From Stigmatella aurantiaca (GTDB lineage: Bacteria > Myxococcota > Myxococcia > Myxococcales > Myxococcaceae): DNA of 64,000 bases. Within the stretch, counting starts at the first letter, position 1, and the number at the start of each line of letters is the position of its first letter. The notes below the pieces were generated by a model. The model was not told the DNA's origin. It was given only the letters and a program-made list of their open reading frames with translations, and did not search any database. Shown here in pieces: positions 31,394 to 63,486 of this stretch. The DNA lies in the NCBI RefSeq assembly GCF_900109545.1, contig NZ_FOAP01000020.1, positions 62,001-126,000 on the forward strand. The letters are read 5' to 3'. Position numbers and translations under genes: made by a program.

Positions 31394-31404
31394 CGTCAGG
31401 GCGG

Positions 31405-32226
31405 TCAGCGCGCCGGGTCAGTCAGCGCGCTTGTCCACTCTGGGGACCACCGGAAGGTCAGCTCCGCGGACGCGGGCCGGCGGCTGCCGGACACAGGCGC
31501 AACCTGGAAGCTCCAGCGGCTGATGCCTTCTCCAACCCCCAGGTGCTGGCCGGAGATGAGCACCTCTTGCCCCAGCGAGATGGGCGAGCCGAACTTCAGG
31601 TGAACGGACAGAAGGCGCGCCTCCTCCGCCTTGGCGCCCAGCGCGGGCTGCAGGAAGGAGGACAGGGCATCCGTCATCCAGCGCAGGTAGAAGCCATTGT
31701 TGACGTGCCGGGCCATGTCGATGTCATCCGGCTGCACGGGCCGCTTCACCTGAAAGGAAAGGGGCTCCGCGGCAGGGGTGACGGCCACGGGCTGGTGGTG
31801 CGTGTAGAAGGATTCCCCGTTGGGCTTGAACCGCTCGGCCAGCTCCCCCCAGGGCGTGGGAGACCGGGTGCCCATGTCCACCAGGATGATGTCGGTGCGG
31901 CCCCGGAGCACCGGCTTGCCGTCCTTGGCCCTGCGCAGCTCGAATTCCCGGTGGGCCAGGGAGCCCTCCATCGACGAGAACCACGTGCGGGCGATGATGC
32001 GGTCCCCATAGCGGATGGGGTGCTCTTTCTCGAAGCGGGAGACGCTGAAAACAGGCGCGACGTTGCGGGCCAGAAACCACTGGGGCGGTACGCCGCCGGC
32101 GGCGGCCGCTTCCCAGGCAATCTCCTGAAGCCAGTTCATGTACGTGAGAGGCTTCAGTTCCAGGGACGCATCCACCTCGTAGCTGCGGACGGTGAGCTCC
32201 AGCTCCGTGATCAAAGTCTCTGGCAT
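31405..32226 (-). CDS. acyl-ACP thioesterase (double hotdog)
   Basis: The 273-residue protein has two hotdog units. The first has TYMNWLQEIAWEAAAAGG, the second DIDMARHVNNGFYLRWMTDAL, the FatA/FatB-like and bacterial acyl-ACP thioesterase motif with conserved His and Asn. It should free fatty acids from an acyl carrier protein. It is the last gene of the acyl-modification cluster. A short GCGCGC palindrome overlaps its stop. Confidence 0.85.
   Translation of the reverse strand: MPETLITELELTVRSYEVDASLELKPLTYMNWLQEIAWEAAAAGGVPPQWFLARNVAPVFSVSRFEKEHPIRYGDRIIARTWFSSMEGSLAHREFELRRAKDGKPVLRGRTDIILVDMGTRSPTPWGELAERFKPNGESFYTHHQPVAVTPAAEPLSFQVKRPVQPDDIDMARHVNNGFYLRWMTDALSSFLQPALGAKAEEARLLSVHLKFGSPISLGQEVLISGQHLGVGEGISRWSFQVAPVSGSRRPASAELTFRWSPEWTSALTDPAR
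31408..31430. terminator. GCGCGC stem-loop at the convergent ends
   Basis: GCGCGC at 31408-31413 and 31425-31430 can pair around an 11-base loop, at the convergent stops of the vWA and thioesterase genes. It is partly coding. Confidence 0.3.
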
Positions 32227-32284
32227 AAGGCCTCAAGCTACCGTTGGGGTCTGGCGGGTGCAACACGCGCTGCCGAGGGGAACC

Positions 32285-33190
32285 TCAGGCTTCCTGGAGG
32301 AAGCCGCGGAGGAGCTCGCAGTACTCCTGGGGCGCCTCCAGCTCGGGAGAGTGCCCCGCGTGCTGAAAACGATGCCACTGGGCCTGGGAGAGCTGGCTGC
32401 CGATGGATTCCTTGTCGCTGCGCGCGTGCGTCCGGTCCGCCATGCCCCAGCTCACCAGGGTGGGCTGCTCCACCCGGACCGCTGGGGGCGTGTACCCGTA
32501 AAACCATTGCTGCCACAGCGAGCCCAGACAGCAGAACGCCCCCTGCGTGAGCGCCTGGTTCAGCGTGGGCACGAAGTCGGAATAGCGGTTCTTGGCCAGC
32601 GAGGCCCTGTACCAGCCGAGCCCGATCTGGTCGGGCTTCAAGGCCGTGGAGAGCTGGCCGAGCACGGGGCGCGACAGGACCTTCTTCTTGTCCACCTCCC
32701 GGGCCCACGTGACTTGCTGCTCCCAGGAGGGCGATTGCCAGAGCATCAGCCGGGTCACCAGCTGTGGGTCCTTCGCGGCGATCTGGAGCGCGATATGGGC
32801 CCAGACACACGTGAAGGCCAGCACATAGGGCCCTTCGTCCAGCTGCCGCAGCAAAGCCTCGATACAGGCCCGGTACTCCTCGAAGGTGAAGCGGAAGGAG
32901 GCCCGGGGGCTCGAGAAGCCAAAGCCCGGCGGCTCGAAGAGAACCAGCCGGTGATGCGGCGAGAGCATCTCGAACACCGCATCGAAGTGCTCGATGACAT
33001 TGGGCGGATCGCACACCATCACCACCGTGGGCTCGCCCGCCTTGCGTGTTCCGCCCGTCCTCACCCGCAGCGTGGCTTGCGGCAGCTCGTGAAAGGTGAC
33101 CGCCGGACGCGTCCGCGCGGCCCAACCCCCCTGGATGCTGTTCGCGCGGGCCCGGAGCCGGAAGCTGTCGAGCCAGGTGACGTTGATCAT
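32285..33190 (-). CDS. alpha/beta-hydrolase fold protein
   Basis: The 301-residue protein has the strand-turn start PTVVMVCDPPNVIEHFDAVFEML and FEPPGFGFSSP. The nucleophile elbow is irregular (AFTCVWAHIAL, with Cys or no Ser in the usual G-x-S-x-G position), while a late Asp and a late His (HAGHSPELEAP) remain. It may be a Cys-type or non-hydrolytic member. ATG 33190 has GGAGAAAGC before it. A role in the lipid pathway is inferred from context. Confidence 0.7.
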   Translation of the reverse strand: MINVTWLDSFRLRARANSIQGGWAARTRPAVTFHELPQATLRVRTGGTRKAGEPTVVMVCDPPNVIEHFDAVFEMLSPHHRLVLFEPPGFGFSSPRASFRFTFEEYRACIEALLRQLDEGPYVLAFTCVWAHIALQIAAKDPQLVTRLMLWQSPSWEQQVTWAREVDKKKVLSRPVLGQLSTALKPDQIGLGWYRASLAKNRYSDFVPTLNQALTQGAFCCLGSLWQQWFYGYTPPAVRVEQPTLVSWGMADRTHARSDKESIGSQLSQAQWHRFQHAGHSPELEAPQEYCELLRGFLQEA

Positions 33191-33212
33191 GCTTTCTCCA
33201 GAGCCAGGCGGC

Positions 33213-33716
33213 TCAGCGGGCCGAGTCGAGCACCATGCAGGTGGCGCGGCCCGAGGCGACCGGCTCGCCATCCGGGGCCAGAATGGTGGCATCGGTGACG
33301 ACAATCTTGCGCCCGTGATGGACGGCCACGCCCTCGCACCGCAGGAGCCCCGTGGCCTCCGTCACCATCTTCACGAAGGAGACGTTCAGGTTGACCGTGG
33401 TCCACCGCGTGCCATATGGCAGCAAGGACATGCAGGCGATGCCGCAGGCGCTGTCGATGAGCGTGGACAGCATCCCGCCATGAACCGTGCCCATGGGGTT
33501 GTAGTGGTACTCGGCCGGGGTGCCCGTGAACACCGCGCGTCCCTTGCCCACCTCGATCAAGCGAATCCCCATGGAGTCGCAGATGGGAGGAGCCGGGTAG
33601 CGGCCCTCGGCCCAGCCTTTGAGGTAATCCTCCTTGGTGGCATGCGCCCCAATCTCCCGGATGTCCGCCCAAGAGACCGTGCGGCTCTTGCTTCCAGGCT
33701 TCGTGTCTTCTGGCAT
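33213..33716 (-). CDS. PaaI-type hotdog thioesterase
   Basis: The 167-residue protein has the PaaI/YigI motif GTVHGGMLSTLIDSACGIA and a strand TTVNLNVSFVKMVTEATGLLRC. It is likely an acyl-CoA or acyl-ACP thioesterase. GAGGAAC precedes ATG 33716. Its acyl substrate is not known, and it gives the cluster a second thioesterase. Confidence 0.8.
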   Translation of the reverse strand: MPEDTKPGSKSRTVSWADIREIGAHATKEDYLKGWAEGRYPAPPICDSMGIRLIEVGKGRAVFTGTPAEYHYNPMGTVHGGMLSTLIDSACGIACMSLLPYGTRWTTVNLNVSFVKMVTEATGLLRCEGVAVHHGRKIVVTDATILAPDGEPVASGRATCMVLDSAR

Positions 33717-33760
33717 GGTTCCTCGCGAAGGTGAGCGTCTGAAATTGCGTGCGCCTGCTG

Positions 33761-35488
33761 TCAACCGCGTCGCCGCCATGCACCGAGCATGGGCAGCTCA
33801 CCGGCAAGGTACTGGTCCTTGCAAACCACCCGGCGGACCTTGCCACTGGAGGTCTTCGGCACGGTTCCAGGTGGGACCAGCACGACCCCCGCCGCGGAGA
33901 GGCCATGCTTCGCCGTGATGGCGGCGCGCACGGTCTCGCAGAGCGCCGCGATGCGCGCCTCGGACAGGGCTTCCTCTGCGCCGTCTGGCTTTCGCACCTC
34001 GATGACCACGATGAGATCGGCGTCATCGTTCGTGACGAATGCTGCGGAGCAGCCCCGGCGGATCATCTGGGGCTCGCTGTCCTCGGCCGTCACCTCGATG
34101 TCGCGGGGGAAGTGGTTCTTGCCGCGGATCTTCAGGACTTCCTTGATGCGCCCGGTGATGAAGAGCTCTCCGTCCTGGATGAGCCCCAGATCGCCGGTCC
34201 GCAGGTAGCGCCGGGAGTCCTCTCCCGCGAGCTGGGCGCCAAAGCTCTCCTGGGTCTGTTCGGGATTCTCCCAGTAGCCTCGCGCGACGCTCGGCCCGCG
34301 CGCCCAGATCTCACCCACCTGGCCGTCTTCCAGGGGGGTGCGTGTCTGGGCATCCACGATGAGGATCTCGCTGTCCGCGCCTGCCCGGCCGCAGCCGACC
34401 AGGACATGGGGCTCGCCGCCGCTGCTGGCAGGCGCAGGCCGGACCACGGGGGCCGCGGCCTTGTCTCCCCCGGAGACGAACAGGGTGGACTCCGCCAGGC
34501 CGTAGCACGGGTAGAAGGCCTCCATGCGGAAGCCGCAGCGGGCGAACTTCTTCGCGAAGGCGTTCAGCCCCTCCCAGCGGACCACGTCGGAGCCGACGAA
34601 CGCGACGCTCCAGGAGGAGAGATCCAACGTGTCGAGCGCGCTGTCCGGCACGCTGCGGGTGCACAGGTCGAATGAGAACGCGGGCCCGCCGCTCGTGGTG
34701 GCCTGGAACCGGGTGATGGCCCGCAGCCAGTGGAGGGGCTTCTTCAGGAAATCGAAGGGCGACATGAGCACCACGGGAAAGCCCGCGTACAGCGGCTGCA
34801 GGATGCCGCCGATGAGGCCCATGTCGTGGTACGAGGGCAGCCAGATCACCCCCTGGCTCTGACGGGTGTGCTCGAACCGCTCCTGGATGACGGCCAGGTT
34901 GTGGAGCAGGTTTCCATGGCTCAACGCCACGCCCTTGGGCGCGCCCGTGGACCCCGAGGTGTACTGGAGGAAGGCGAGGGTCTCCTCCGTGGGAGGCCGC
35001 GGGCGCCGGGCCTCCGCCGCCCCGGCCACCGTGTCCGTCGCGAGCCAGACCTTCTCGTCCGCGCCCTCGATGTCGCCCGTCAGCATGCGCGCCAGCTCCA
35101 GCGTCATGGAGTCGCCGAGGATGGCGCGCGGGTTGGCGTTGCGGATGATCCCCATCAGCAGCGGCAGCGCCTTCTCCAGCCGCCCGGGCTCCGGCGGATA
35201 CACGGGCACCGCCACCACCCCCGCGTAGACGCACGCGGCGAACCCGACGAGGAACTCGAGCCCGGGCGGATAGAGCAGCAGCGCCCGCTCACCCACGAGC
35301 TGCGCCTCCACGAGCTGCTGGGCAATGCCCCGCACCCGGCTCAGCAACTGCCCGCTGGTGAGGCTGGCGACGACGCGGTCCCCGTCCTCCACGAAGCGGT
35401 AGAGCTCCAGGTCTGGCTGCTCCCGGCCGCAATGCTCGATGACCTCAGCCAGGGACCTGAACCGCGACAGGTGGCTGTCCGTCTTCAT
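33761..35488 (-). CDS. fatty acyl-AMP ligase (FAAL)
   Basis: The 575-residue adenylation enzyme has the P-loop YTSGSTGAPKG, the FAAL/FadD32-like PSYHDMGLIGG, YLRTGDLG and, near the end, the RGKNHFPRDIE segment with conserved TSSGKVRR Lys. These point to FAAL, which forms acyl-AMP and passes the acyl group to an ACP, not to CoA. The ATG overlaps the stop of the amidohydrolase gene (ATGA). The ACP of this cluster is the likely partner. Confidence 0.9.
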   Translation of the reverse strand: MKTDSHLSRFRSLAEVIEHCGREQPDLELYRFVEDGDRVVASLTSGQLLSRVRGIAQQLVEAQLVGERALLLYPPGLEFLVGFAACVYAGVVAVPVYPPEPGRLEKALPLLMGIIRNANPRAILGDSMTLELARMLTGDIEGADEKVWLATDTVAGAAEARRPRPPTEETLAFLQYTSGSTGAPKGVALSHGNLLHNLAVIQERFEHTRQSQGVIWLPSYHDMGLIGGILQPLYAGFPVVLMSPFDFLKKPLHWLRAITRFQATTSGGPAFSFDLCTRSVPDSALDTLDLSSWSVAFVGSDVVRWEGLNAFAKKFARCGFRMEAFYPCYGLAESTLFVSGGDKAAAPVVRPAPASSGGEPHVLVGCGRAGADSEILIVDAQTRTPLEDGQVGEIWARGPSVARGYWENPEQTQESFGAQLAGEDSRRYLRTGDLGLIQDGELFITGRIKEVLKIRGKNHFPRDIEVTAEDSEPQMIRRGCSAAFVTNDDADLIVVIEVRKPDGAEEALSEARIAALCETVRAAITAKHGLSAAGVVLVPPGTVPKTSSGKVRRVVCKDQYLAGELPMLGAWRRRG

Positions 35489-36459
35489 GTGGGGCGCTCC
35501 GTTTTCGCGGGTCCGAAGAGCTGGGTGGCGTTGTCCCAGAGCACCTTGCGCAGCACATCCTCCGGCAGGTAGCGCTCCAGCTCGCGCATCTCCAGGTCAG
35601 GGTCATACGGCAGGTTGGGGAAGTCGGTGCCGAACAGGAACCGGTCCGGCCGTTCGATCATCTGCGGGACAAGCTGCTCGAGCGCGGGCTTCCAGGGCTC
35701 GGGCAGGCGGGGCTTCCGGCCCTTCTCGTAGCGCGTCATCGAGAGCGGCCGGACGTCCGGCAGCGCCTCTCCGCGCGCCACGCGGTACCCGCCAAACGCC
35801 ATGGCGGTGTCCAGGTAGAGGTTCGGGAACTCGTCGAGCATGTCCAGGTAGAGCTGGACCTCGTCGTACCCGATGTGCGGCACGATGACCTTGAGGTTGG
35901 GCGTGCGCCGCATGGCGCGCAGGAAGCGGGGGACGGCGCACAGCTCGTCGATCTCGCTCTTGTGCGCCTTGCTCTGCGAGACAGGGCCGCAGTGGATCTG
36001 CAGGATCTTTCCCGTCTCCGCGAGTGTGTCGAACACCGGCAGCATGCGGTCATCGTCCGGGGCGATCTTCTGCACGTGGCAGTGAATCTTGATGCCCGAG
36101 AGCTGGAGCTCCCCGAGCGCCCGGCGAAGCTCGGCCTCGAAGCCCTCTTCACCGGGCAGGACGGTGCCGAAGCCGACGAGCCGCCCGGGGTGGGCGGCCA
36201 CCAGCTCCGCCATGAACTCGTTGAGCATGCCCGCCACGCCGGGCTGGTGCGTGTAGCAGAGCCCGACCATGCGCTCGATGCCGTAGCGCTCCAGCAGGCC
36301 GAACGTCTCCTCGGGCGAGGGCTTGTGCCGGATCGGCCAGGAGTTCTCCTCGAACCACTTCCAGATGAAGCGCGCCAGCATGCCGGGAAACAGGTGCACG
36401 TGCACATCGAAGGCGCGCAGGGGGCGGGGAGCTGCGGCGGAGGGGTCTTGCGTGGCCAT
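35485..36459 (-). CDS. amidohydrolase-family metal-dependent hydrolase
   Basis: The 324-residue protein shows FDVHVHLFPG (HxH metal site), IHCHVQ, LQIHCGP, VIVPHIGYDE and FLFGTDFPN (late Asp), the amidohydrolase_2 order (as in aminocarboxymuconate-semialdehyde decarboxylase-type enzymes). Its substrate is unknown. ATG 36459 lies five bases after the desaturase stop. The presence of this enzyme within a lipid cluster is unusual. Confidence 0.8.
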   Translation of the reverse strand: MATQDPSAAAPRPLRAFDVHVHLFPGMLARFIWKWFEENSWPIRHKPSPEETFGLLERYGIERMVGLCYTHQPGVAGMLNEFMAELVAAHPGRLVGFGTVLPGEEGFEAELRRALGELQLSGIKIHCHVQKIAPDDDRMLPVFDTLAETGKILQIHCGPVSQSKAHKSEIDELCAVPRFLRAMRRTPNLKVIVPHIGYDEVQLYLDMLDEFPNLYLDTAMAFGGYRVARGEALPDVRPLSMTRYEKGRKPRLPEPWKPALEQLVPQMIERPDRFLFGTDFPNLPYDPDLEMRELERYLPEDVLRKVLWDNATQLFGPAKTERPT

Positions 36460-36464
36460 GAAGC

Positions 36465-37424
36465 TCAGGTCGTCGCCAGGGGTTTTTTCTTCTTGGCCTC
36501 CACGGAGGCCGTGTTGGGCATGTGCACGTCGCGCGTGAGCCGGAAGAACGCCAGGGCCCGGATGAGCAGGCCCGTCAGGTCCACCTGCCACCAGCGAAGG
36601 GACGTGACGGCGTAGGAGGGGAAGGTGTGGTGGTTGTTGTGCCAGCCGGCGCCGAGCGTGACGATGGCCTGCCAGAACGAGTTGCGGCTGTGGTCCCGGG
36701 TCTCCAGCGGGCTGCGCCCTCCGAGCGCATGGCCCACGGAGTTGACGCTCCAGATGGCGTTGGTGGCCAGGAAGACGCGCACCGTGCCGCCCCAGAGGAA
36801 GCCCAGCAGCACGCCCTGGAGCGAGCCATGGAGGAGGCCGCCGATGGCCGCCGGAATCGCCAGGCCGAGCACCAGCCAGTAGTCGTACATCATGTGGAAC
36901 TTGAAGAGCACCGGGTCCTTGTACAGGTCCATCGCGTACCGGCCCCACTGCTCCGGCCGTGCGCACCGGGCATCCAGGAGCCACCCCACGTGGGCGTGGT
37001 ACAGCCGCCGGAGGCGGCCCGGGTGCTGCGGCCACCAGGGCGAGTGCGGATCGCCCTGCTGGTCCGTGTTCTTGTGGTGGATGCGGTGGATGGCCACCCA
37101 CCAGATGATGGGGCCCACGTACGAGAGGGAGCCGAGCACCGCCAGGGCCAGCTCCACCGCCCGGGGCGCCCGGAAGGACCGGTGCGTGAAGTAGCGGTGG
37201 TACGCCAGCTCCATCCCCAGGATGTTCAGGACGTAGAACACCCCGAGCAGCAGGAAGTCCACCGCCGTGGGCACCGCCAGCCCGCTCCACCACAGGCCGA
37301 GCGCCACCAGCGTCCCCACGACGGGGAAGAGGATGACGAGGCTGTGGCGCAGCAAGGACGACTTGGAAAGCCGCTCATGCCCCCCTGAGCCAGAAAGGGC
37401 CGCGGCCTGAAGGTTCTCGCTCAT
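36465..37424 (-). CDS. membrane fatty acyl desaturase 2
   Basis: The 319-residue integral membrane protein has the three His boxes: HRYFTH, HRIHH and HNNHH. The family uses a di-iron site and oxygen to place double bonds in acyl chains (delta-9 type). About four membrane spans are seen. It resembles the cluster's first desaturase in its boxes and length, consistent with a duplication followed by divergence. In some clusters such enzymes act on acyl-ACP and some are acetylenases. Confidence 0.9.
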   Translation of the reverse strand: MSENLQAAALSGSGGHERLSKSSLLRHSLVILFPVVGTLVALGLWWSGLAVPTAVDFLLLGVFYVLNILGMELAYHRYFTHRSFRAPRAVELALAVLGSLSYVGPIIWWVAIHRIHHKNTDQQGDPHSPWWPQHPGRLRRLYHAHVGWLLDARCARPEQWGRYAMDLYKDPVLFKFHMMYDYWLVLGLAIPAAIGGLLHGSLQGVLLGFLWGGTVRVFLATNAIWSVNSVGHALGGRSPLETRDHSRNSFWQAIVTLGAGWHNNHHTFPSYAVTSLRWWQVDLTGLLIRALAFFRLTRDVHMPNTASVEAKKKKPLATT

Positions 37425-37436
37425 GGGGCACGGGGG

Positions 37437-38321
37437 TCAGTCTTTGCCGAAGCGGTTGGGTTCGATGCGCCGGAAGGTGATGCGGTAGAGGTGGAAGGCG
37501 CCCAGGTCGAACGAGTAGCTCATCGTCCGGTACATCCGCTCGTAGCGCTCGATCACCTCGAGCGGTACCAGCTTCAGCGCCTTCTCGCGGTTGCTGCGCA
37601 GGTTCTCGAACCAGGCCCGCATCGTCTTGACGTAGTCGTGCCGGTCATTGCGCAGGAACTCGACCTCGAAGAGCATCTCGCTGGAGCGGACGATGTCGGC
37701 CAGGTACGGCAGGTCCGACTCGGGGAACACCTCGCGGGCGATGAACAGGTCCTTGTGCTTGCGGTCGCGGGGCACGTCGCCGTAGGCCATGGTCTGCAAG
37801 GACATGCGGCCGCCCGGCTTGAGCAGCTCGTAGCAGCGCTGGAAGTAGCGCCGGTACGCCTCGATCTTGTCCTCGTTGATCTTGGCGAAGTGCTCGAAGG
37901 CGCCCAGCGAGATGATGCCGTCGAACGGCTCGTCCGGCCGGTAGTCCTGCCAGTTCTCCAGCCGCACCTCGATCTGCGGCAGGTTGATGGCCTGGTGGAT
38001 GTACCGCTTCTGCTCTTGGCTGAGCGTGAGGCCCACGACGTTCTGGACGCCGTGGTTCACCACCAGCCGCTTCACCAGCGAGCCCCAGCCGCAGCCGATG
38101 TCCAGCACGCGCTGGGCGCCCTTCGCGCGGATCTGCCCGATGTGGTAGTCCAGCTTGCGGATCTGGGCCTGCTCGTGGGTGTCGCCCTCCTCCCACATCG
38201 CGGACGAGTACGTGCGGGTCTCTTCCTGCGCGAGCGCTAGGAAGTCATTCCCGATGTCGTAGTGGTACTGGATGGATTCTTTCGAGGCGCCCACCTGCGC
38301 CTGTGCACCGCTGGTTGACAT
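37437..38321 (-). CDS. CFA-synthase-type SAM methyltransferase
   Basis: The 294-residue protein shows YHYDIGNDF, RVLDIGCGWGSL (SAM site) and FDGIISLGAFEHF, as in cyclopropane-fatty-acid synthases and mycolic-acid methyltransferases. It would add a methylene (cyclopropane) or methyl group to an unsaturated acyl chain. It lacks the N-terminal domain of E. coli Cfa. An AGGAA site precedes the ATG. It follows the ACP gene by 39 bases. Confidence 0.88.
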   Translation of the reverse strand: MSTSGAQAQVGASKESIQYHYDIGNDFLALAQEETRTYSSAMWEEGDTHEQAQIRKLDYHIGQIRAKGAQRVLDIGCGWGSLVKRLVVNHGVQNVVGLTLSQEQKRYIHQAINLPQIEVRLENWQDYRPDEPFDGIISLGAFEHFAKINEDKIEAYRRYFQRCYELLKPGGRMSLQTMAYGDVPRDRKHKDLFIAREVFPESDLPYLADIVRSSEMLFEVEFLRNDRHDYVKTMRAWFENLRSNREKALKLVPLEVIERYERMYRTMSYSFDLGAFHLYRITFRRIEPNRFGKD

Positions 38322-38360
38322 GGCTCGGTTCCTGTCCCGGTAAGCGAAAGGGAAATGCGC

Positions 38361-38630
38361 TCAGCTCTTGCCCGCATCCAGGTGCTGGGAGAGCGCCTCG
38401 ATGGTGGGGTACTTGTAGGGGAGGCTGGGGGACAGCCGGCGGCCCACGAAGTCCTCCAGGTCGCCGACCATGCGCACGGCCTCCGCGGAATCGAGTCCGA
38501 AGCTGTCGAACGTCTTCTTCGTGTCCACCTCGCCGGGCGAGACGCCCAGCTTCTTGGACAGGTAGAGGCACATCCAGTCACGGCTGCTCGTGGACGGCTG
38601 CTGCTGCTTCGCGGTCGCGGGATTGCTCAA
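38361..38630 (-). CDS. acyl carrier protein
   Basis: The 89-residue protein has the phosphopantetheine site FGLDSAEAVRM, Ser in DSA. A start is not obvious as ATG; TTG 38630 overlaps the desaturase stop (TTGA) and has GGGAGAAACACC upstream, so it is chosen. It is the carrier on which the FAAL would load an acyl chain for desaturation and methylation. Confidence 0.85.
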   Translation of the reverse strand: MSNPATAKQQQPSTSSRDWMCLYLSKKLGVSPGEVDTKKTFDSFGLDSAEAVRMVGDLEDFVGRRLSPSLPYKYPTIEALSQHLDAGKS

Positions 38631-39568
38631 GGTGTTTCTCCCTGGGTCGTCGTCGGTTGGGTGTAGAGTTCTTTGAGGGCAATCATCTCGGGGGTGGGTT
38701 TGCGCACGTCCCAGACCAGCCTGGCCGATTTCAGTCCCCAGACGACCCACCCCCCGAAGTCGATCTGCCACCACTTGAGCCCGGTGTACGCGGAGCTCGG
38801 AAAGGCATGGTGGTTGTTGTGCCAGCCCTGGCCAAAGGTGAACAGCGCCAGCGTGAAGCTGTTCTTGCTGAAGTCCCGGGTCCGGAAATAGGGCTTCCCA
38901 ATCAGGTGGCACAGGGAGTTCAACGACCAGATGCACTGATTGACGAGGAAGATCCGGACCATTCCGCCCCAGAGGAAACCCATCAGGGCGCCGAACAGGC
39001 TGCCGTGCGCGATGCCGCTCACCACGGTGGGAATGAGCAGGCCCAGGAACAGCCATACATAATATTGCAGGTGCATCCGAAGGATCAGGTCATCTTCGTA
39101 GAGATCCCGGACGCGGTCGCGCCAGTTCTCGGGCCGGGTCGAGCCCGCCGTGAAGAGCCAGCCCATGTGGCTGTGGTAGAAGCCCTTCAGGGTGCCCCAG
39201 GCCCCGCCGCCCGACAGCCGGGGCGAGTGGGGATCTCCCTCCAGGTCGCTCAGCGTGTGGTGGCGGCGGTGGATGGCACACCACCAGATCGCCGGGCCAT
39301 GAAAGGCCATGGAGCCCGCCGCGAGCAGGGCCGCGCGCAAGCCCTCATGCGCCTTGAAGGAGCGGTGGGCCAGATGCCGGTGGAATCCTACCTCCAGTCC
39401 AATGACTGTGATGATGTACAGGATTGCCGCCGTGACAAGCTCGGGGGCCGCCGGCGCATGGCCGGACCACCATAAAATTCCTGCCGCAAGGGTTCCCAGG
39501 GTTGGAACGACCGTTACAATGACAGCCAAAATCTGATCGAGTCGAGCGTGCTCGGGGAGGTTCGCCAC
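38627..39568 (-). CDS. membrane fatty acyl desaturase 1
   Basis: The 313-residue protein has the His boxes HRHLAH, HRRHH and HNNHH and about four hydrophobic segments. It begins with GTG, with AAGAGGA six bases upstream, and is the first gene of the cluster, near a strong promoter. It overlaps the ACP start. The substrate is probably acyl-ACP, from the overlap and the ligase downstream. Confidence 0.9.
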   Translation of the reverse strand: MANLPEHARLDQILAVIVTVVPTLGTLAAGILWWSGHAPAAPELVTAAILYIITVIGLEVGFHRHLAHRSFKAHEGLRAALLAAGSMAFHGPAIWWCAIHRRHHTLSDLEGDPHSPRLSGGGAWGTLKGFYHSHMGWLFTAGSTRPENWRDRVRDLYEDDLILRMHLQYYVWLFLGLLIPTVVSGIAHGSLFGALMGFLWGGMVRIFLVNQCIWSLNSLCHLIGKPYFRTRDFSKNSFTLALFTFGQGWHNNHHAFPSSAYTGLKWWQIDFGGWVVWGLKSARLVWDVRKPTPEMIALKELYTQPTTTQGETP

Positions 39569-39588
39569 GGCATTCCTCTTTCAATCGT

Positions 39589-39618
39589 CATATAGGCGAC
39601 GGCTGATTTGGGCGTCAA
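39589..39618 (-). promoter_or_regulatory. sigma70-like promoter for the acyl cluster
   Basis: On the minus strand TTGACG (39618-39613), an 18-base spacer and TATATG (39594-39589) lie about 20 bp before the GTG. The -35 matches consensus at five of six positions, the -10 at four. The leader would be very short. Confidence 0.55.
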
Positions 39619-39851
39619 GCAACGATTCTCGGATGAGCAGCGGTTGCCATTGATGAAATGTGTGGCGTGGCTGGAATCTGAGTGAGGGCACGGTCCACGC
39701 GGCGCACTTGCGGAAACCCTTGCTTCCTGGGCCTTGATTCCAACAGGAATGGGTGGATCTTCCTGCGCGTGCATGCTGGGCAAGCGGGCTGCGCTCCAGG
39801 AAGGCCGCGCGCGGCCCATCTGGTCTGCCTGAGCTTGGTTACAATGTTTGT

Positions 39852-39901
39852 TTGATACACATTGCGCCGTTGATACTTCTTGTTCACGGCACGGCTGATA
39901 C
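39852..39901. repeat. three GATAC direct repeats in a low-GC stretch
   Basis: TTGATAC occurs at 39852-39858 and 39870-39876, and CTGATAC at 39895-39901. These could be sites for a regulator, but no protein is known. Confidence 0.35.
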
Positions 39902-39950
39902 AGGTGTCTTCACATCCGTGATGTCAGGATAACACCCTGAGCGTGTCTGC

Positions 39951-41225
39951 CTAGGCGCCGGAGAAGCGCTCTTCCACGACGAACGGCTCGCAAGGGCGGC
40001 CGTCGAGGTCACGGAAGGCGACATGGCGTTGGATCGCCTTGCGCTGATCGCCGTCCTTGCCGTAGTCGCTGCCGTTGCGCCACACGTGCAGGTACATCGC
40101 ATAGAGGCCGTTGCCCTGGCTCACGAACGCAGGGTGGCCCGGGCCATTCCACTGCCCTCCAAGCGCCGGGCTCTGGCTGTCGATCAAGAGCCGCTCGTCC
40201 CCCACGCTTCCCGCGAGCAGGTCGAGCTTGGCGATGTACGTGCGGTACTCGGAGTTCCCGAAGAAGCCCGCGCTGTAGATGAGGTACGACTGGCCGTTCT
40301 CGGTCACCACGAACTGGCCTTCGATCAGGCCATCATGGTGCGGCCCATTGCTGAGCAGGACCTTCGGCGCGCCCAGCAGCTCGATGCGTCCGTCCGCGTC
40401 CTGCCTGAATTCGTGCGCGAGGATGGGCGTGGGCGCCTTGTGCGTCTGCTGGGTCACCGGGTCCTTCCACTGCAACCCGTTGCCATCCACCTTGGTGAGC
40501 AGGAACGTCCGCTCGCGGCCATCCGGGCCCAGGGCCGCGGCGACGTGGCCGTCGATCATGCCGACAAGAGGGTTCTCGCCCGCGGGGCCCCCGGGATAGC
40601 CGGGCGCCACGTCCTTCACCCGGACGTTGATGTCGAGGAAGCCATGGTCCTTCCACTCGCCATCGATGGCCGAGGCGGTGGCATAGGCGGAGCGCAGGAT
40701 GCCGGCGCGATCCCGGGCGGTGTAGTGCAGCGTGAGCAGCCCGTTGCGCTCGTCAATCTCGGGAGCCCACCGGGCCAGGACGAGATCCCTGGGAAGATCG
40801 GGCGCCAGCGGATCGAGCTCGCCCCCATTCCACCACGCGGGGAGCTTGCCCTCGGGGAAGATGGCGCGGTGCTGGCCGTCCACCGTGTGCGGCACCCAGG
40901 TGCCATTCACGAGGCGGTACAGCCGGAAGGCGAAGGGCTGATCGTTGGTGGTTGCAATCAGCCAGAGGCCCGCGGTGCGCGCGCCACCCGGGCTCTTCGC
41001 CGTCAGCCGCAGCACGAACGGATCGGGCATGGGCTCGTGCAGGAGCGGCTCGGGAACGCGCTGCAGGTTCGCGACGATGTCTTGGAGCGTGCGCGATTCC
41101 CCGGGCGGAACCTCAAAGAGGCTCGCCGGGTCCTGCACGGTGTTGCCACGGAGGCGGTTGGGCTCGAGCCGCTGGACACCCGGGGTGGCGGCAGGGGAGG
41201 ACTGGGAGTCGGAGGGAGAGCTCAT
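39951..41225 (-). CDS. GH43-like glycosidase, probably cytoplasmic
   Basis: The 424-residue protein has the five-blade propeller markers: DPFVLRL (base Asp), ARWAPEIDE, GMIDGHVAAALG and EGQFVV with YLIYSAGFFGNSEYRTYIAKL (general acid Glu region), fitting GH43/GH62-like enzymes. No signal peptide is seen, so it should act in the cytoplasm, cutting sugar that the upstream ABC importer brings in. It is the last gene of that operon, after two hairpins. Confidence 0.75.
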   Translation of the reverse strand: MSSPSDSQSSPAATPGVQRLEPNRLRGNTVQDPASLFEVPPGESRTLQDIVANLQRVPEPLLHEPMPDPFVLRLTAKSPGGARTAGLWLIATTNDQPFAFRLYRLVNGTWVPHTVDGQHRAIFPEGKLPAWWNGGELDPLAPDLPRDLVLARWAPEIDERNGLLTLHYTARDRAGILRSAYATASAIDGEWKDHGFLDINVRVKDVAPGYPGGPAGENPLVGMIDGHVAAALGPDGRERTFLLTKVDGNGLQWKDPVTQQTHKAPTPILAHEFRQDADGRIELLGAPKVLLSNGPHHDGLIEGQFVVTENGQSYLIYSAGFFGNSEYRTYIAKLDLLAGSVGDERLLIDSQSPALGGQWNGPGHPAFVSQGNGLYAMYLHVWRNGSDYGKDGDQRKAIQRHVAFRDLDGRPCEPFVVEERFSGA

Positions 41226-41275
41226 TCGAGCGCGCAACGCTACAGGACGCTCGCTCCGGGGTTCCAGCCTGGAAA

Positions 41276-41322
41276 CCAGGAGGCCCTGCCTCCTGGCTCC
41301 CAGGGCATCCGGGCAAGCCCGG
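41276..41322 (-). terminator. two hairpins between the binding-protein and GH43 genes
   Basis: CCAGGAGG/CCTCCTGG (41276-41283, 41289-41296) and CCGGGC/GCCCGG (41309-41314, 41317-41322) are perfect inverted repeats in the 104-bp gap. They may attenuate or protect the mRNA 3' of the binding-protein gene, as is common in ABC operons. Confidence 0.55.
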
Positions 41323-41329
41323 GGCTGGG

Positions 41330-42646
41330 TTACTTGCGGGCGCGGCGCAGGATTTGCGTCGCCCGGCGCTGAGCGTCGGACAGGGCCTGATCCGGCTTCT
41401 TGTTGACCAGCCAGGTCGAGTTCACCTCGTTCACCAGCAGGTCCAGGATGGCGCGCTGGTTCTCGATGGCTGGCACCGCCTTGGCGATGGTGGCCGTGCG
41501 GGTGTACTCCGACCGGTGCGGCAGCGCCTGCATCTCGGCGCTCTTGAGCACCGAGGTGCGCACCGGCAGGTGCCCGGTGCGGGCCCACTGGAAGTTGTTG
41601 TCATTCAGGAACTTGAGGAAGGCCAGGGCCGCCTTCTGCTTCGCCGGATCCGGCTTCGGCTGCTTCGGTAGGACCCACAGGTGGCTGTCGGACCAGACGG
41701 CTTCCTGGCCGTAGAGGGCCGGAATGTCGCGCACGGCGTACTTCTTGAGGGCGGTCTTCGGATCCTTGGACTGCGCCTCGTAGGTGTCCACGCCCCAGGT
41801 GCCGTTGATGAGCACCGCCGCCTCGCCGCCGATGAAGGCCTGCTGCGCGCTGGCATAGTCGTGCTTGCTGCTGGCATGGCCTGCGGCGTAGAGCGAGTGG
41901 AGCAGGCGCAAGGCCTCCTTGCTCTCCTTCGACTCCAGCTGGGCCTTCTTCTCGGCGTCGATGATGTTGCCGCCCTGCTGCCACACCCAGGTCAGGTATT
42001 GCCAGGACGGCATCGGGTCGGCCGAGGAGGGGATGGCGAAGTACATCTTGCCGGTCTTGGCCTTCATCGTCTGGGCGTGTTGCATCAGCTCGGCGGGGCT
42101 GGTGGGCATCTTCGGCTGGCCCTTGGCATCGACGAGCCCCGCCTTGACGAACAGGTCCACGTTGACGTGCCACACGAGCGCGTGCAGGTCGAACGGCAAG
42201 GCCCACATCTCGCCATTGGCGGTGACCGCGTCGCGCGCCACCGGCAGGAAGTCGGCGGCGTCGATGCCGGCCGTGGTGAAGCTCTTGCCGAGCGGCTGGA
42301 CGAGCCCGCGCGTCAGGTAGTTCGGCAGGACGCTGCGGTGCATGACGGCGATGTCGGGCGGGGTGCCGCCAGCGATGGTGGAGCTCAGGCGGTCGTAATA
42401 GACGCCCCACTCGATCGACTGGGTCTTGACGGTGATGCCCTCCTTGTTCTCCGCGTTGAACTTGTTGGTCAGCACCTGGATGATTCCGCACTCGCCGACC
42501 GCCTTCGACAGATCGGTGACGTTGCCGTACTCATCGCTGCAGCCGCCGAAGAAGCGGAACAGCGTGATCTCCGTGGCGGATGCCGGGGTGGCGCCCAGGG
42601 TCACGGCCAGCAGCATCGCGGCCGGGAGCAGTGCCTTCATCTTCAT
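41330..42646 (-). CDS. carbohydrate ABC transporter substrate-binding protein
   Basis: The 438-residue protein has a signal peptide (cut near ASA-TE) and the group-1 binding-protein pattern: VLTNKFNAENKEGITVK, GGTPPDIAVMHR and DFLPVARDAVTANGEMWALPF, with LINGTWGVDTY. It is similar to multiple-sugar or oligosaccharide binders. The specific sugar is not deducible. Gene order (ATPase, two permeases, binder) is read from the minus strand. Confidence 0.88.
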   Translation of the reverse strand: MKMKALLPAAMLLAVTLGATPASATEITLFRFFGGCSDEYGNVTDLSKAVGECGIIQVLTNKFNAENKEGITVKTQSIEWGVYYDRLSSTIAGGTPPDIAVMHRSVLPNYLTRGLVQPLGKSFTTAGIDAADFLPVARDAVTANGEMWALPFDLHALVWHVNVDLFVKAGLVDAKGQPKMPTSPAELMQHAQTMKAKTGKMYFAIPSSADPMPSWQYLTWVWQQGGNIIDAEKKAQLESKESKEALRLLHSLYAAGHASSKHDYASAQQAFIGGEAAVLINGTWGVDTYEAQSKDPKTALKKYAVRDIPALYGQEAVWSDSHLWVLPKQPKPDPAKQKAALAFLKFLNDNNFQWARTGHLPVRTSVLKSAEMQALPHRSEYTRTATIAKAVPAIENQRAILDLLVNEVNSTWLVNKKPDQALSDAQRRATQILRRARK

Positions 42647-42678
42647 GGATCTTCCCTCCTCTTGCGGGTGGTACGAGG

Positions 42679-43503
42679 CTACTTGCCACCGGTCATGGCG
42701 ATACCTTGCACGATGTACCGCTGGAACACGGCATAGATGATGAGCATCGGCGCACTGGCGAACACCGCCGAGGCCATCAGGAAGCCGAGCCCCTCCGACA
42801 TGGCGAAGTTACCCTGGAGCGAGCCGAGGCCGACGCTGAGCGTGTACATCTCCGGCTGGGCGGCCGTGACGACCGGCCAGAGAAAGTCGTTCCAGGCATA
42901 CAAGAAGGTGAAGATGCCGAGCGTCGTCAGGGCCGGGCGGGACAGCGGCAGCATCACCGACCAGAAGACCTTCAGCCGGCCCGCGTTGTCGAGCTCTGCC
43001 GCCTCCTCCAACTCGCGCGGCACCGCCTTGAAGAACTGGGTCATCAAGAACACGCCCATCGGCACGGCCAGACGGGGGGCAATCAGGGAGAAGTAGGTGC
43101 TGTGCAGGTTCCAACCGGCGAACATGGCGTGCAGCGGCACCAGGACGGCCTGCTCCGGAATCATCAGTCCGGCCATCACCAGCAGGAAGACGGCGCGGCG
43201 GCCGGGAAAGGCGATCCGGGCGAAGGCGTAGCCCGCGAGCGACGACAGCACCAGCGTCAGGGCCGTCATGCCCACGGCGACGAGCAGGCTGTTGAGCAGC
43301 CAGCGCGGCGTCAGCGACACCCGCATCAGGGCCGCGAAGTGCTCGAAGGTATGGGGCCACGGCAGGACACCGGAGGTGGACTGCACCAGCATGGCGTTGG
43401 GCTTGAGCGCCATGGCCAGCACCCACAGCATGGGCAGCATCCACACGCACGCGGCGGCGATCAGCAGGGCGAGGATGAGGTGGTCACCGAAGGTCCGCTT
43501 CAT
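42679..43503 (-). CDS. carbohydrate ABC permease, MalG type
   Basis: The 274-residue membrane protein has six helices and the EAA loop EEAAELDNAGRLKVFWSVMLPLSRPAL. It is the second permease of the importer and lies four bases after the first. Confidence 0.9.
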   Translation of the reverse strand: MKRTFGDHLILALLIAAACVWMLPMLWVLAMALKPNAMLVQSTSGVLPWPHTFEHFAALMRVSLTPRWLLNSLLVAVGMTALTLVLSSLAGYAFARIAFPGRRAVFLLVMAGLMIPEQAVLVPLHAMFAGWNLHSTYFSLIAPRLAVPMGVFLMTQFFKAVPRELEEAAELDNAGRLKVFWSVMLPLSRPALTTLGIFTFLYAWNDFLWPVVTAAQPEMYTLSVGLGSLQGNFAMSEGLGFLMASAVFASAPMLIIYAVFQRYIVQGIAMTGGK

Positions 43504-43507
43504 GGCC

Positions 43508-44419
43508 TCAGTTCTCCCGCCTGGACAGACGCAGCTGCAGCAGCGCCACGAAGAACATCAGGACGAACAGCACCAGTGACATGGAGGAGGCATAGCCCGA
43601 GCGCCAGTCGCGGAAGCCGGTCTCGTAGATGAGCTGCACCAGCGGCCGGGTGGAGTTGGACGGGCCGCCGCGCGTCATCAGCAGTGGCTGGCCGAACACC
43701 TGGAGGTGCATGACGGTCTCCAGCACCAGCACGAGCAGGATCGTGCGCTTCAGCGCGGGCAGGGTGATGCGCCACAGCACCGCCCAGCGCGAGGCATTGT
43801 CGAGCCTGGCGGCCTCGTAGACCTCGGGGGGAATCTGCTGCAGCCCGGCGAGAAACAGCGCCATCGGAAAGCCAGCGGTCCACCACAGGCTCGTCACCAC
43901 CAGCGCGGGCATGGCCCACTCCTGGTGGGTCAGGAAGGCAATCGGCTCCAGCCCCACGGCCCGCAGCCCGTTCGCCACCAGGCCCTGGTTGGGGTTGAGC
44001 ACCATCGTCCACACCAGCGTGACGACCGTGACCGAGAAGATGCTGGAGGCGAAGAAGATCGCTCGCAGCACGCCATGGATCCGCCCCGGCCGGTTGAGCG
44101 CCAGGGCCAGGACGAAGCCAAGCACCGTCGCCGCCGGGACCGTCATGGCGGCGAACTGCAGGGTGCGCTTCAGGGCCTCCCAGAAATAGGGATCATCCCA
44201 GAGCTCCTCGTAGTTCAGCCAGCCGATGTACTCCCGGTAGTCCCCGACGATCTCCCAGTCGTGAAGGCTCATCCACAGGCCGAGGCCAAAGGGATAGAGC
44301 AGGAAGAGGGCGTAGACGGCGAGGAACGGGGCCAGGAAGGCATAGCCCGCGAAGGCGTCGCGATAGCGCGTCCGCCAGCGGCGCGGGAGGGCAGGAGCGG
44401 GAGCACGGGTGCTGGCCAT
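43508..44419 (-). CDS. carbohydrate ABC permease, MalF type
   Basis: The 303-residue membrane protein has six helices and the EAA-loop EVYEAARLDNASRWAVLWRITLPALK. Met 44419 is chosen over the earlier 44473, which would overlap the ATPase gene. It pairs with the MalG-type permease. Confidence 0.9.
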   Translation of the reverse strand: MASTRAPAPALPRRWRTRYRDAFAGYAFLAPFLAVYALFLLYPFGLGLWMSLHDWEIVGDYREYIGWLNYEELWDDPYFWEALKRTLQFAAMTVPAATVLGFVLALALNRPGRIHGVLRAIFFASSIFSVTVVTLVWTMVLNPNQGLVANGLRAVGLEPIAFLTHQEWAMPALVVTSLWWTAGFPMALFLAGLQQIPPEVYEAARLDNASRWAVLWRITLPALKRTILLVLVLETVMHLQVFGQPLLMTRGGPSNSTRPLVQLIYETGFRDWRSGYASSMSLVLFVLMFFVALLQLRLSRREN

Positions 44420-44429
44420 GGTGTCCCCC

Positions 44430-45527
44430 TCAGGCGGCGGTGGCGGCGGATGGCGGCAAGGCCATTCCATCACCGCCGAACAGCCGGCCGCTGCCGGGCT
44501 CGATGGCCAAGGTCACGGTGTCGCCAATGCGGACCGCACTGTCCCCGGTGTCCGTGGCGATGAGCGTGGGGCCCTCCGCGCCGGCGACGTGCAGCAGCGT
44601 CTCGCGGCCCAGCCGCTCGATGGCCCTGACCTGGCCGCGCAGGATGCCCTCGCCCGTGGTCAACCGCAGGTGCTCGGGCCGGACGCCGAAGGTGACGGGG
44701 GCGCCTGGGGCCATCCCGGTGCCATTCGCAGCGGCCTCGGCGCGCCCGCCCGGCAGGGTGACCGCTACCTGGCCGGGGCTGACGGACATCACCTGGGCTT
44801 CGATCAGGTTCATCTTCGGGGTGCCCATGAACCCGGCGACGAAGGTGTTGGCGGGGTGCCGGTAGATCTCCATCGGCGTGCCGACCTGCTCGACTCGTCC
44901 GTCGCGAAGAACGACGATGCGGTCGGCCATGGTCATCGCCTCCACCTGGTCGTGGGTGACGTAGATCGAGGTGGCCTCGAGCCGCTGGTGGAGCTGCACC
45001 AGCTCAACGCGCATCTGCACCCGCAGCGCGGCATCCAGATTGGACAGTGGCTCGTCGAACAGAAAAACGTCCGGCCTGCGGACGATGGCGCGGCCAATGG
45101 CGACGCGCTGGCGCTGGCCACCGGACATGTCCGCGGGGCGGCGATGGAGCAGGTGCTCGATCTGCAGCGTCTTGGCGGCCGTGGCCACGCGGGCGGCGAT
45201 CTCGGCGCGGGGCGTGCCAATGTTGCGCAGGCCGAAGGCCATGTTCCCCGCGGCCGTCATGTGCGGGTAGAGGGCATAGTTCTGGAAGACCATGGCGACC
45301 CCTCGCTCGCCGGGCGGGGTTGCGTTGACCTGGCGCCCGCCGATGAAGAGCTCGCCGCCACTGATCTCCTCCAGCCCGGCAATCATGCGCAGGAGCGTGG
45401 ACTTGCCGCACCCCGAGGGGCCGACGAAGACGATGAATTCCCGGTGCTTCAGCTCGAGCGAGACGCCATGGACGACCTCTGACGAGCCGTAGCGCTTGCG
45501 CAAATCCCGGAGCAACACATCGGCCAT
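44430..45527 (-). CDS. sugar ABC importer ATPase (UgpC/MalK type)
   Basis: The 365-residue protein has Walker A GPSGCGKST, signature MSGGQRQRVA, Walker B FLFDEPLSNLD and the switch His in YVTHDQ, then the TOBE regulatory domain (about 250-360). It energises the two permeases. As first gene of the operon, it is preceded by a 289-bp region with two inverted repeats. Confidence 0.93.
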   Translation of the reverse strand: MADVLLRDLRKRYGSSEVVHGVSLELKHREFIVFVGPSGCGKSTLLRMIAGLEEISGGELFIGGRQVNATPPGERGVAMVFQNYALYPHMTAAGNMAFGLRNIGTPRAEIAARVATAAKTLQIEHLLHRRPADMSGGQRQRVAIGRAIVRRPDVFLFDEPLSNLDAALRVQMRVELVQLHQRLEATSIYVTHDQVEAMTMADRIVVLRDGRVEQVGTPMEIYRHPANTFVAGFMGTPKMNLIEAQVMSVSPGQVAVTLPGGRAEAAANGTGMAPGAPVTFGVRPEHLRLTTGEGILRGQVRAIERLGRETLLHVAGAEGPTLIATDTGDSAVRIGDTVTLAIEPGSGRLFGGDGMALPPSAATAA

Positions 45528-45610
45528 GGGTTACCCTCCAGCTCAGTCCGCGAAGGGCTGATAGACGCCAAGAGCGTGGAGCGCAAGGGTCTCGGGGAAT
45601 TCGTGGCCTG

Positions 45611-45630
45611 CGGGCCGCTGCGGCGGCCCG
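45611..45630. repeat. perfect 8-bp stem-loop ahead of the ABC operon
   Basis: CGGGCCGC and GCGGCCCG flank TGCG in the region before the ATPase gene. It could fold in the operon leader. Confidence 0.45.
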
Positions 45631-45679
45631 GCGTTGCCGCAGTACGTCATCAACGCGGGATATCGCTTCCGCGGAGAGG

Positions 45680-61524: not shown

Positions 61525-63486
61525 TTAGGCCTTCTCCGCGTACTCCTGGCAGCAGCAGAACTCGGTCGTGGTGGTCGTGCTCGACTTGCTGCCGCAGATC
61601 ACCTTCTCCAGGAGCTCCTGGAAGCCGTTCAGCGCGTCCTTGGAGGTGAACGCCTTGCCGCCGGTCTCGGACGCGGCGCGCGCGAACTCATTCTCCAGCG
61701 CCTTTCGCTGCTTCTCCTTCGCGCCGCTCGTGCCGAGGTACGTGTGGATCCGGACATCGCTCTTCTTGGCGGCGTCGATGGCGCGGTTGGCGGCGTCGAT
61801 ATCCTCTTGATTCACGTCGCTGCCGCCGCCCTCGAACGCCTCGTCGCCGAGGAAGAAGACCGCGCGCTTGGCGGAGGGCCGCCAGTCATAGTGCGCGATG
61901 ACGTCCTCGATGGCGCGCGCCCCGTCCTCCTGCGCGCCGCCGCCCGCCACCGTGCCCTTCTTGCGCCCCCGGAGCGCGGACTCGTCCGCCTTGGCGGTAC
62001 CGGTCAGGTAGTTCTTGACCGTGGTGTCGAAGCGCGTGTTCTTGAACGTTCCTTCGATGCCCAGGTACGTGACGCGCAGGTCCGAGGGGCACTTGGTCTT
62101 GGCCGTCTCGATGGCCGCGCCGACCGCCTTGTTCAGCGCGTCGGCCTCGTCCTTCATCGAGACGCTGGAGTCGATGACCACGACGAGATCGACCGCGGGC
62201 GTGGAGGTGCTCTCTTCGGTGACCGTGGTCCCCGTGGCCAGCTTGGGGAAGTCCAGCGTCTTGCCGAGATAGCTCTGCGGGCCTTCGCCGCCGATTCCGG
62301 TGAGCTGCGCCGGCAGGGTGGTGTCCGCGGTCAGGCTGCAGACGCCCTTCGCCGGGGTGCCGGTCACGAACGTGAAGCGCGGATCGTCACCGTCCTGCTT
62401 GAAGTAGAACGTCTGGACGTTGGCCTGGTTGAGCGTGCCGACGGTCTTGTCGTGGTAGTAGAACGCGGTCAGCTTGGGCTCCCCGCCACCGGCCGGGGTC
62501 TCATAGGTAAAGCAGCCCTTGCCCGCGATCGAGCCGTCCGGGTTCTTCACGGCGAAGGTGTAGCTGGTGGTGCTCCCAGACTGCTTGCCAGGTTTGTCCT
62601 TGATGACAATGGTGGGCTTGGCTGGCGTCGCGGGCTTGGAAGGCTGATCGGCCTTGGACGGCGTGGAAGGCTGATCGGACTTGCGAAGGAAGGCGGTGGC
62701 GACGTACAGCCCCGAGTTGTCGATGCGCGGCGCCCGGTTGTTGCCCACGGGGAAGATGTCGTAACGCAAGTGCAGCGTCTTGCAGCCAGCCGCATCGAGC
62801 CGCACCAGGCCCATCACCGTATCGATCGAGTTGGCCATGCCGCCGGGAGCCGGCTTCGAGGTGCCTTGCAGCACGCCGTTCGTGAGGCTCAACTGCGCGC
62901 TCGGCTGATTCCCCCCGGAGGTGGGAGGTGCCGCGCCGCCGTTGAGCAGCTTCCAGCCCGCGGGACTGGCGGCGCTGCCGTCGGCGAGCGTGCCGGTCAT
63001 GGTGACCGTCGTCCTGGCGTAGGTCAGGCCGGCGTAGATATCGCTCAAGCCGATGAGCGTATGGGCTCCCGCGACGCCGTCCTTGCCCCCGGCCTTCGAG
63101 CCCTTGTACCGGGAGAAGTCGAGCTCGACCGTGAAGTTGTTCTGGGCGCTGGTGAACTGCCTGTTGGCCTGCATGCGGATCGCGTTGACGCTGGTGGACG
63201 TCAAGCCCGCCTGCTCATTCTTGCCGAACGAGCTGGCGCCGGTGCCATCATTGATCGAGCCGTGCGGGGCCACGCCCCCGTTGTTCCAGTCAAAGGTGCC
63301 GAAGCCAGAGCTGACGCCGAACCGGATGCCGATCTCCCCGCCCAACCCGTCGGGGATATAGCGCCACTGGTTCCAGTCGCCGGAGCCATTCCACTTGTAC
63401 CCAGAGGGGTCCCAGAACACGAGGTCGAGCGTTTCGGTGGAGGGAGGCGGGAGATGGGGCGTTTGTGAAACATTGGGCTGTAACAT
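61525..63486 (-). CDS. vWA-domain protein with a Cys-rich end
   Basis: The 653-residue protein has an N-terminal beta-rich region (about 20-260), a Pro/Ser/Lys linker (about 270-300), a second beta region (about 305-415) and a vWA domain (about 432-630) with MIDAS DSSVSMK (Asp439, Ser441, Ser443). It ends in TTTTTEFCCCQEYAEKA with three adjacent Cys. No signal peptide is seen. GAAAGGA lies before the start. The function is unknown; metal-dependent ligand binding is suggested. Confidence 0.75.
   Translation of the reverse strand: MLQPNVSQTPHLPPPSTETLDLVFWDPSGYKWNGSGDWNQWRYIPDGLGGEIGIRFGVSSGFGTFDWNNGGVAPHGSINDGTGASSFGKNEQAGLTSTSVNAIRMQANRQFTSAQNNFTVELDFSRYKGSKAGGKDGVAGAHTLIGLSDIYAGLTYARTTVTMTGTLADGSAASPAGWKLLNGGAAPPTSGGNQPSAQLSLTNGVLQGTSKPAPGGMANSIDTVMGLVRLDAAGCKTLHLRYDIFPVGNNRAPRIDNSGLYVATAFLRKSDQPSTPSKADQPSKPATPAKPTIVIKDKPGKQSGSTTSYTFAVKNPDGSIAGKGCFTYETPAGGGEPKLTAFYYHDKTVGTLNQANVQTFYFKQDGDDPRFTFVTGTPAKGVCSLTADTTLPAQLTGIGGEGPQSYLGKTLDFPKLATGTTVTEESTSTPAVDLVVVIDSSVSMKDEADALNKAVGAAIETAKTKCPSDLRVTYLGIEGTFKNTRFDTTVKNYLTGTAKADESALRGRKKGTVAGGGAQEDGARAIEDVIAHYDWRPSAKRAVFFLGDEAFEGGGSDVNQEDIDAANRAIDAAKKSDVRIHTYLGTSGAKEKQRKALENEFARAASETGGKAFTSKDALNGFQELLEKVICGSKSSTTTTTEFCCCQEYAEKA

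Follow-up and report, generated by a model that had tools for sequence, protein, structure and literature searches.

In the JamABC system and in the polyyne clusters (caryoynencin, cepacin, collimonin, and protegencin), a fatty acyl-AMP ligase (FAAL) loads a fatty acid onto a dedicated acyl carrier protein (ACP), membrane desaturases act next, and a hydrolase or thioesterase is encoded in the cluster. Genome mining for alkyne biosynthesis uses the combination of FAAL, ACP, and desaturase as its signature. We analyzed a 64,000-nucleotide stretch of Stigmatella aurantiaca DNA (NZ_FOAP01000020.1, positions 62,001 to 126,000; hereafter the window, to whose positions all coordinates refer unless a locus is named) that holds nine open reading frames arranged head to tail on the minus strand, from 39,568 to 31,405, in the order Des1-ACP-MT-Des2-AmdH-FAAL-TE1-ABH-TE2 (Table 1). 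This operon resembles the systems above in its loading enzyme, its carrier, and the kind of its desaturases, and its FAAL, desaturase, and ACP are encoded together as in a JamABC-type cassette (in the sense used in a polyyne survey; PMC8406139). Unlike the polyyne clusters, it has two desaturases rather than three and no rubredoxin, and it differs from both in carrying an extra CMAS-type methyltransferase, an amidohydrolase, and two hotdog thioesterases.

We assign a probability of roughly 0.6 to the reading that the operon encodes a self-contained pathway for modification of an ACP-bound acyl chain. As judged from the protein families, FAAL would adenylate a free fatty acid and load the dedicated ACP, Des1 would introduce a double bond into the bound chain, and MT would add a one-carbon unit from S-adenosylmethionine (SAM) at that double bond, yielding either a cyclopropane or a methyl branch with a shifted double bond. 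A second desaturation of the modified chain, by Des2, would follow, and the unsaturated fatty acid, now methylated or cyclopropanated, would be freed by a thioesterase, most likely TE2. Finishing or proof-reading of the product may fall to AmdH, ABH, and TE1. The desaturate-methylate-desaturate order would have a proven parallel in UfaM, which converts cis-vaccenate into an 11-methyl trans-unsaturated chain on phospholipids, and UfaD, which desaturates that chain further (PMC7380195). Release by a thioesterase is consistent with the match of TE2 to the acyl-ACP thioesterase models of Pfam and with the surroundings, as no polyketide synthase (PKS), nonribosomal peptide synthetase (NRPS), acyltransferase, or ketosynthase was found in or adjoining the operon. 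An earlier sequence-only reading had arrived at the same enzyme set acting on a carrier-bound chain, without PKS or NRPS, and at a modified fatty acid as the product; the protein families support the former, and the free acid is probable. Its suggestion of an amide-linked product finds no counterpart in the operon, which has no amide-forming enzyme.

The adjacency of the core genes in other organisms points to work on one carrier. MT was used as the query against Myxococcota, plasmids, and 399 genomes from the order to which a Burkholderiales metagenome-assembled genome (MAG) belongs, and its relatives, apart from the two near copies of the operon, showed ∼42 to 76% identity. Among the 16 MT-bearing loci that were examined, the window included, desaturase, ACP, and MT genes are adjacent in that order in 13 (the window, L015, L016, L017, L018, L019, L020, L026, L027, L029, L043, L045, and L046), which belong to Myxococcota, Beta- and Alphaproteobacteria, and Actinomycetota. 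MT stands directly behind ACP in every one of these triads, and FAAL accompanies 12 of them. The nine-gene set is thus no isolated oddity: its core of desaturase, ACP, and CMAS methyltransferase with FAAL recurs in several phyla.

The complete set was found in 3 of the 195 Myxococcota genomes searched. All nine genes occur in identical order in L015, from the same genus (protein identity of 86-96%), and in L016, from the same family (80-92%). The DNA match to these two near copies spans positions 31422-39683 and 31418-39578 and ends there, almost exactly at the operon edges, which indicates that the operon moves as a block; the block lies at different sites in its three carrier genomes, and no acceptor gene travels along. 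Consistent with this mobility, the closest relative searched (G079), which matches the window at ∼95% DNA identity to the left of the operon, loses collinearity with it after 31401 and regains it at 45675, with different genes in between. In G077, the left-flank gene of the window and the cluster share a contig but are ∼3 Mb apart. The genome of the window itself, 9.4 Mb in size and high in G+C, is, with these relatives, in line with a myxobacterium. The dN/dS values of 0.08-0.24 across the nine genes (0.09-0.11 for Des1) indicate purifying selection, and each gene appears to have been kept functional. Together, the shared gene order in two other genomes, the DNA identity that ends at the edges, and the dN/dS values argue that the operon is more than a chance assembly.

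Table 1. Positions of the operon genes and the promoter-like sequence in the window.
Feature	Position	Strand	Description	Basis
Promoter-like sequence	39589..39618	-	TTGACG-18-TATATG, in front of Des1	Read in sequence
Des1	38627..39568	-	Membrane desaturase for fatty acyl chains, 313 aa, with intact histidine boxes	PF00487
ACP	38361..38630	-	Dedicated ACP of 89 aa, starting with TTG; Ser48 lies in GLDS	PF00550
MT	37437..38321	-	CMAS-type SAM methyltransferase, 294 aa, without N-terminal CFA domain	PF02353, E 1e-62
Des2	36465..37424	-	Second membrane desaturase, 319 aa	PF00487
AmdH	35485..36459	-	Amidohydrolase-2 (ACMSD-like) metal enzyme, 324 aa	PF04909, fold matches
FAAL	33761..35488	-	Fatty acyl-AMP ligase, 575 aa	AMP-binding; best curated (NCBIfam) and PDB matches are FAALs
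TE1	33213..33716	-	PaaI-type hotdog thioesterase, 167 aa	PF03061 (4HBT), TIGR00369
ABH	32285..33190	-	Alpha/beta-hydrolase, 301 aa, Cys128 at nucleophile position, Asp252, His280	PF00561
TE2	31405..32226	-	Acyl-ACP-thioesterase-like double-hotdog protein, 273 aa	PF01643, PF20791, PF13279 (4HBT_2)

By sequence, each of the individual enzymes belongs to a known family; the nine genes and their order are as first read from the DNA, and the Pfam, NCBIfam, and PDB matches agree with the families then assigned. The four-base overlaps described in that reading occur at two of the eight junctions (TTGA at Des1/ACP and ATGA at AmdH/FAAL); the other six are gaps of 5-58 nt, lengths that assume the TE1 start kept in L015 and L016. 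As for the promoter that it placed at the front of the operon, the sequence at 39618-39589 is kept in L015, but a consensus promoter scan did not include it among its reported sites, and its assignment as the putative Des1 promoter is suggestive only. Des1 begins with GTG here and with ATG in L016.

The best NCBIfam match of the ACP was the Pks13 model, at a score far below its cut-off, and both the NCBIfam and the PDB matches place the FAAL sequence with FAALs in preference to acyl-CoA ligases. Des2, in which the histidine boxes are likewise intact, shares ∼46% identity with Des1. In a small desaturase tree, from which the second desaturase of L046 was excluded, Des1 and Des2 form sister groups that each contain their counterpart from the Burkholderiales MAG locus L020, so the duplication predates that split; the next neighbors are desaturases of an S. 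goshikiensis cluster that carries a polyyne gene set. MT has MmaA4 as its closest solved structure and belongs to the CMAS/CFA family by its Pfam match. We take the bicarbonate site of CmaA1 to be Cys35, Glu140, His167, and Tyr232, and MT keeps the Glu and Tyr of this set.

The predicted model of AmdH (pLDDT of 80) is an ACMSD-like barrel with fold matches at Z 20-26, which extend across the superfamily and cannot separate decarboxylase from hydrolase. The expected metal ligands are present in the window protein, whereas one His is replaced by Arg in L020, and a paralogue with ∼40% identity is spread across many myxobacteria (matches in 78 of 195 genomes). For ABH the predicted model was poor (pLDDT of 42), but Cys128, Asp252, and His280 are invariant in four orthologues, and the Cys, which is also kept in distant relatives, aligns in a profile alignment with the catalytic Ser of solved hydrolases; on the strength of this placement, we rejected the idea that ABH is a pseudo-enzyme lacking a nucleophile. 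ABH relatives with ∼36% identity occur in a second type of cluster in three myxobacterial genomes (L066:2065-8690, L065:7609-14227, and L067:1874-8357), which also encodes a CFA-type methyltransferase of full length, a desaturase unlike those of the operon, several alpha/beta-hydrolases including the ABH relative, and an amidohydrolase-2 protein (domain scan made for L066). No match to FAAL or ACP was found in L065 and L066, and these clusters presumably act on ester-bound lipids. Their repetition of methyltransferase, desaturase, Cys-hydrolase, and amidohydrolase suggests that it is the chemistry, and not the carrier, to which ABH and AmdH are tied.

Several observations weigh against the proposed pathway. 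MT has Ser at the position of Cys35 and Gln at that of His167 (CmaA1 numbering) and thus lacks the full bicarbonate site, which makes the one-carbon outcome uncertain, although these changes would not exclude cyclopropanation. The Gln is common to all 16 MTs, to MmaA4, and to a CFA-type paralogue in this genome; it is for this last reason no more than a hint that the outcome may not be cyclopropane, and we dropped it as a diagnostic residue. Four proteins (AmdH, ABH, TE1, and TE2) are more enzymes than a simple scheme requires. The triad of L019 has no FAAL in the stretch read. Finally, L020 is the locus closest to the window outside the near copies, with Des1, ACP, MT, Des2, AmdH, and FAAL in identical order and an ABH orthologue (59%) near the core, yet no TE1 or TE2 homologue was detected there. 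A 1098-aa fusion of AMP-binding, PP-binding, and class I-II aminotransferase-fold domains beside its core cassette (L020:3264-6560) is read as alpha-oxoamine-synthase-like, and together these features imply that release as a free acid is not general in this family.

Other partners accompany the core elsewhere: PKS genes in L017, L019, L026, L045, and L046, a P450 with an alpha/beta-hydrolase in L027 and L043, and, by reading, a thioesterase-like hydrolase with an alcohol-dehydrogenase-like protein in L018 and acyl-CoA-dehydrogenase-like genes in L029. The MT match of L047 stands alone. On the Sphingobium plasmids pSRL2 (L028:4896-8776) and pTomMM15a (L044:4890-8651), an autoinducer synthase (LuxI-type, with a PF00765 match in L028) is followed by ACP, MT, and FAAL without a desaturase, and the product could be an acyl-homoserine lactone with a SAM-modified chain; ABH had no match in the plasmids searched. 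Tentatively, and at somewhat less than even odds, we view desaturase-ACP-CMAS methyltransferase with FAAL as an undescribed, horizontally spread cassette that hands its methylated or cyclopropanated chains on to finishing enzymes that are interchangeable, namely thioesterases here and PKS, the alpha-oxoamine-synthase-like fusion, P450 with hydrolase, or perhaps a LuxI-type autoinducer synthase elsewhere. If so, it would reveal a hidden lipid class and possibly acyl-homoserine lactones with SAM-modified chains.

These varied partners raise the alternative that the operon prepares an acyl unit for an unlinked acceptor, such as a PKS, an NRPS, or a lipid headgroup enzyme elsewhere, with the thioesterases acting as proof-readers. 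The remaining ACP-like matches of the genome lie on other contigs, where there are many ACP-bearing megasynthase frames, and related cassettes feed PKS modules or the fusion of L020. We nevertheless regard this explanation as unlikely, given that the block occupies different sites in three genomes without an accompanying acceptor gene and that the operon has its own acyl-ACP-thioesterase-like protein.

An alkyne- or polyyne-type pathway, in which the desaturases would be acetylenases on the ACP-bound chain and MT would merely decorate it, appears improbable. The mining signature is taken as a mark of alkyne potential in the polyyne survey (PMC8406139), and Des1 and Des2 group with the S. goshikiensis desaturases, but intact histidine boxes are not diagnostic of acetylenase activity, and according to that survey three desaturases, a thioesterase, and a rubredoxin are common to the polyyne clusters. 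The gaps of the operon leave no space for a rubredoxin gene, and the constant position of MT behind ACP speaks against this reading; membership in the polyyne clusters was rejected on the desaturase count and the missing rubredoxin. The JamA/B/C parallel drawn in the sequence-only reading holds for carrier loading and desaturase family; with the third desaturase and rubredoxin of the polyyne clusters missing and MT present, an alkyne is not the favored product. Least probable is a role in membrane-lipid adaptation, with modified fatty acids returning to phospholipids as for CFA synthase or furan fatty acid genes: a CMAS-type enzyme and desaturases are present, and L065 and L066 combine such enzymes without FAAL or ACP, but the operon has a dedicated FAAL and ACP, a sporadic distribution, and movement as a block, and a full CFA-type match lies elsewhere in the genome, on contig C1.

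Directly upstream of the operon, at 39951-45527, are genes for a GH43-like protein and a sugar-type ABC transporter, whose solute-binding protein was found in no genus-mate; together with the operon, these genes make up the stretch (31402-45674) where G079 carries other genes. Farther away, a cobalamin riboswitch (RF00174; 23062-23195) precedes a group of genes, among them those for a periplasmic-binding protein and a FecCD-type permease, and a 653-aa protein (61525-63486) has no Pfam match at the cut-off used.

The pathway of FAAL loading, desaturation, methylation, second desaturation, and thioesterase release was also compared with the literature. In keeping with the earlier reading, which did not recognize the full set as a described pathway, no such pathway was found in the open literature searched: term searches of a FAAL review (PMC11837247) and of the polyyne survey (PMC8406139) revealed no set of this kind with a methyltransferase, and open-access work on FAAL with cyclopropane, desaturase, or acyl-homoserine lactone synthase does not describe it, an absence that is not proof. 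If the MT-containing branch does make methylated or cyclopropanated chains, some alkyne predictions are mis-assigned and there is a distinct class of acyl products still to be found, for which the nine-gene operon without PKS or NRPS offers a simple form to express and test. Mycolic acid modification (FadD32, the Pks13 ACP, DesA, and CmaA/MmaA) likewise acts on a long acyl chain with FAAL, carrier, desaturation, and CMAS-type methylation, whereas the ACP of the operon is small and free and its desaturases are different; the operon also has no genes for trehalose or mycolyl transfer and no Pks13-type condensation or elongation, there being no ketosynthase in or beside it. The imidacins of Stigmatella resemble the proposed product as myxobacterial free carboxylic acids with a SAM-derived cyclopropane, but they arise when a type I PKS extends a urocanate starter, unlike a FAAL-desaturase operon, and their pathway was rejected as a match (PMC11301661). 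Compared at the level of pathway logic, the UfaM-UfaD-UfaO pathway for furan fatty acids in Rhodobacter is similar, with SAM methylation of an unsaturated chain before a second desaturation (PMC7380195); it works on phospholipid acyl chains without FAAL or ACP, and the operon has no identified UfaO-like step. The operon would be the carrier-bound counterpart of this phospholipid-bound CFA and furan fatty acid chemistry.

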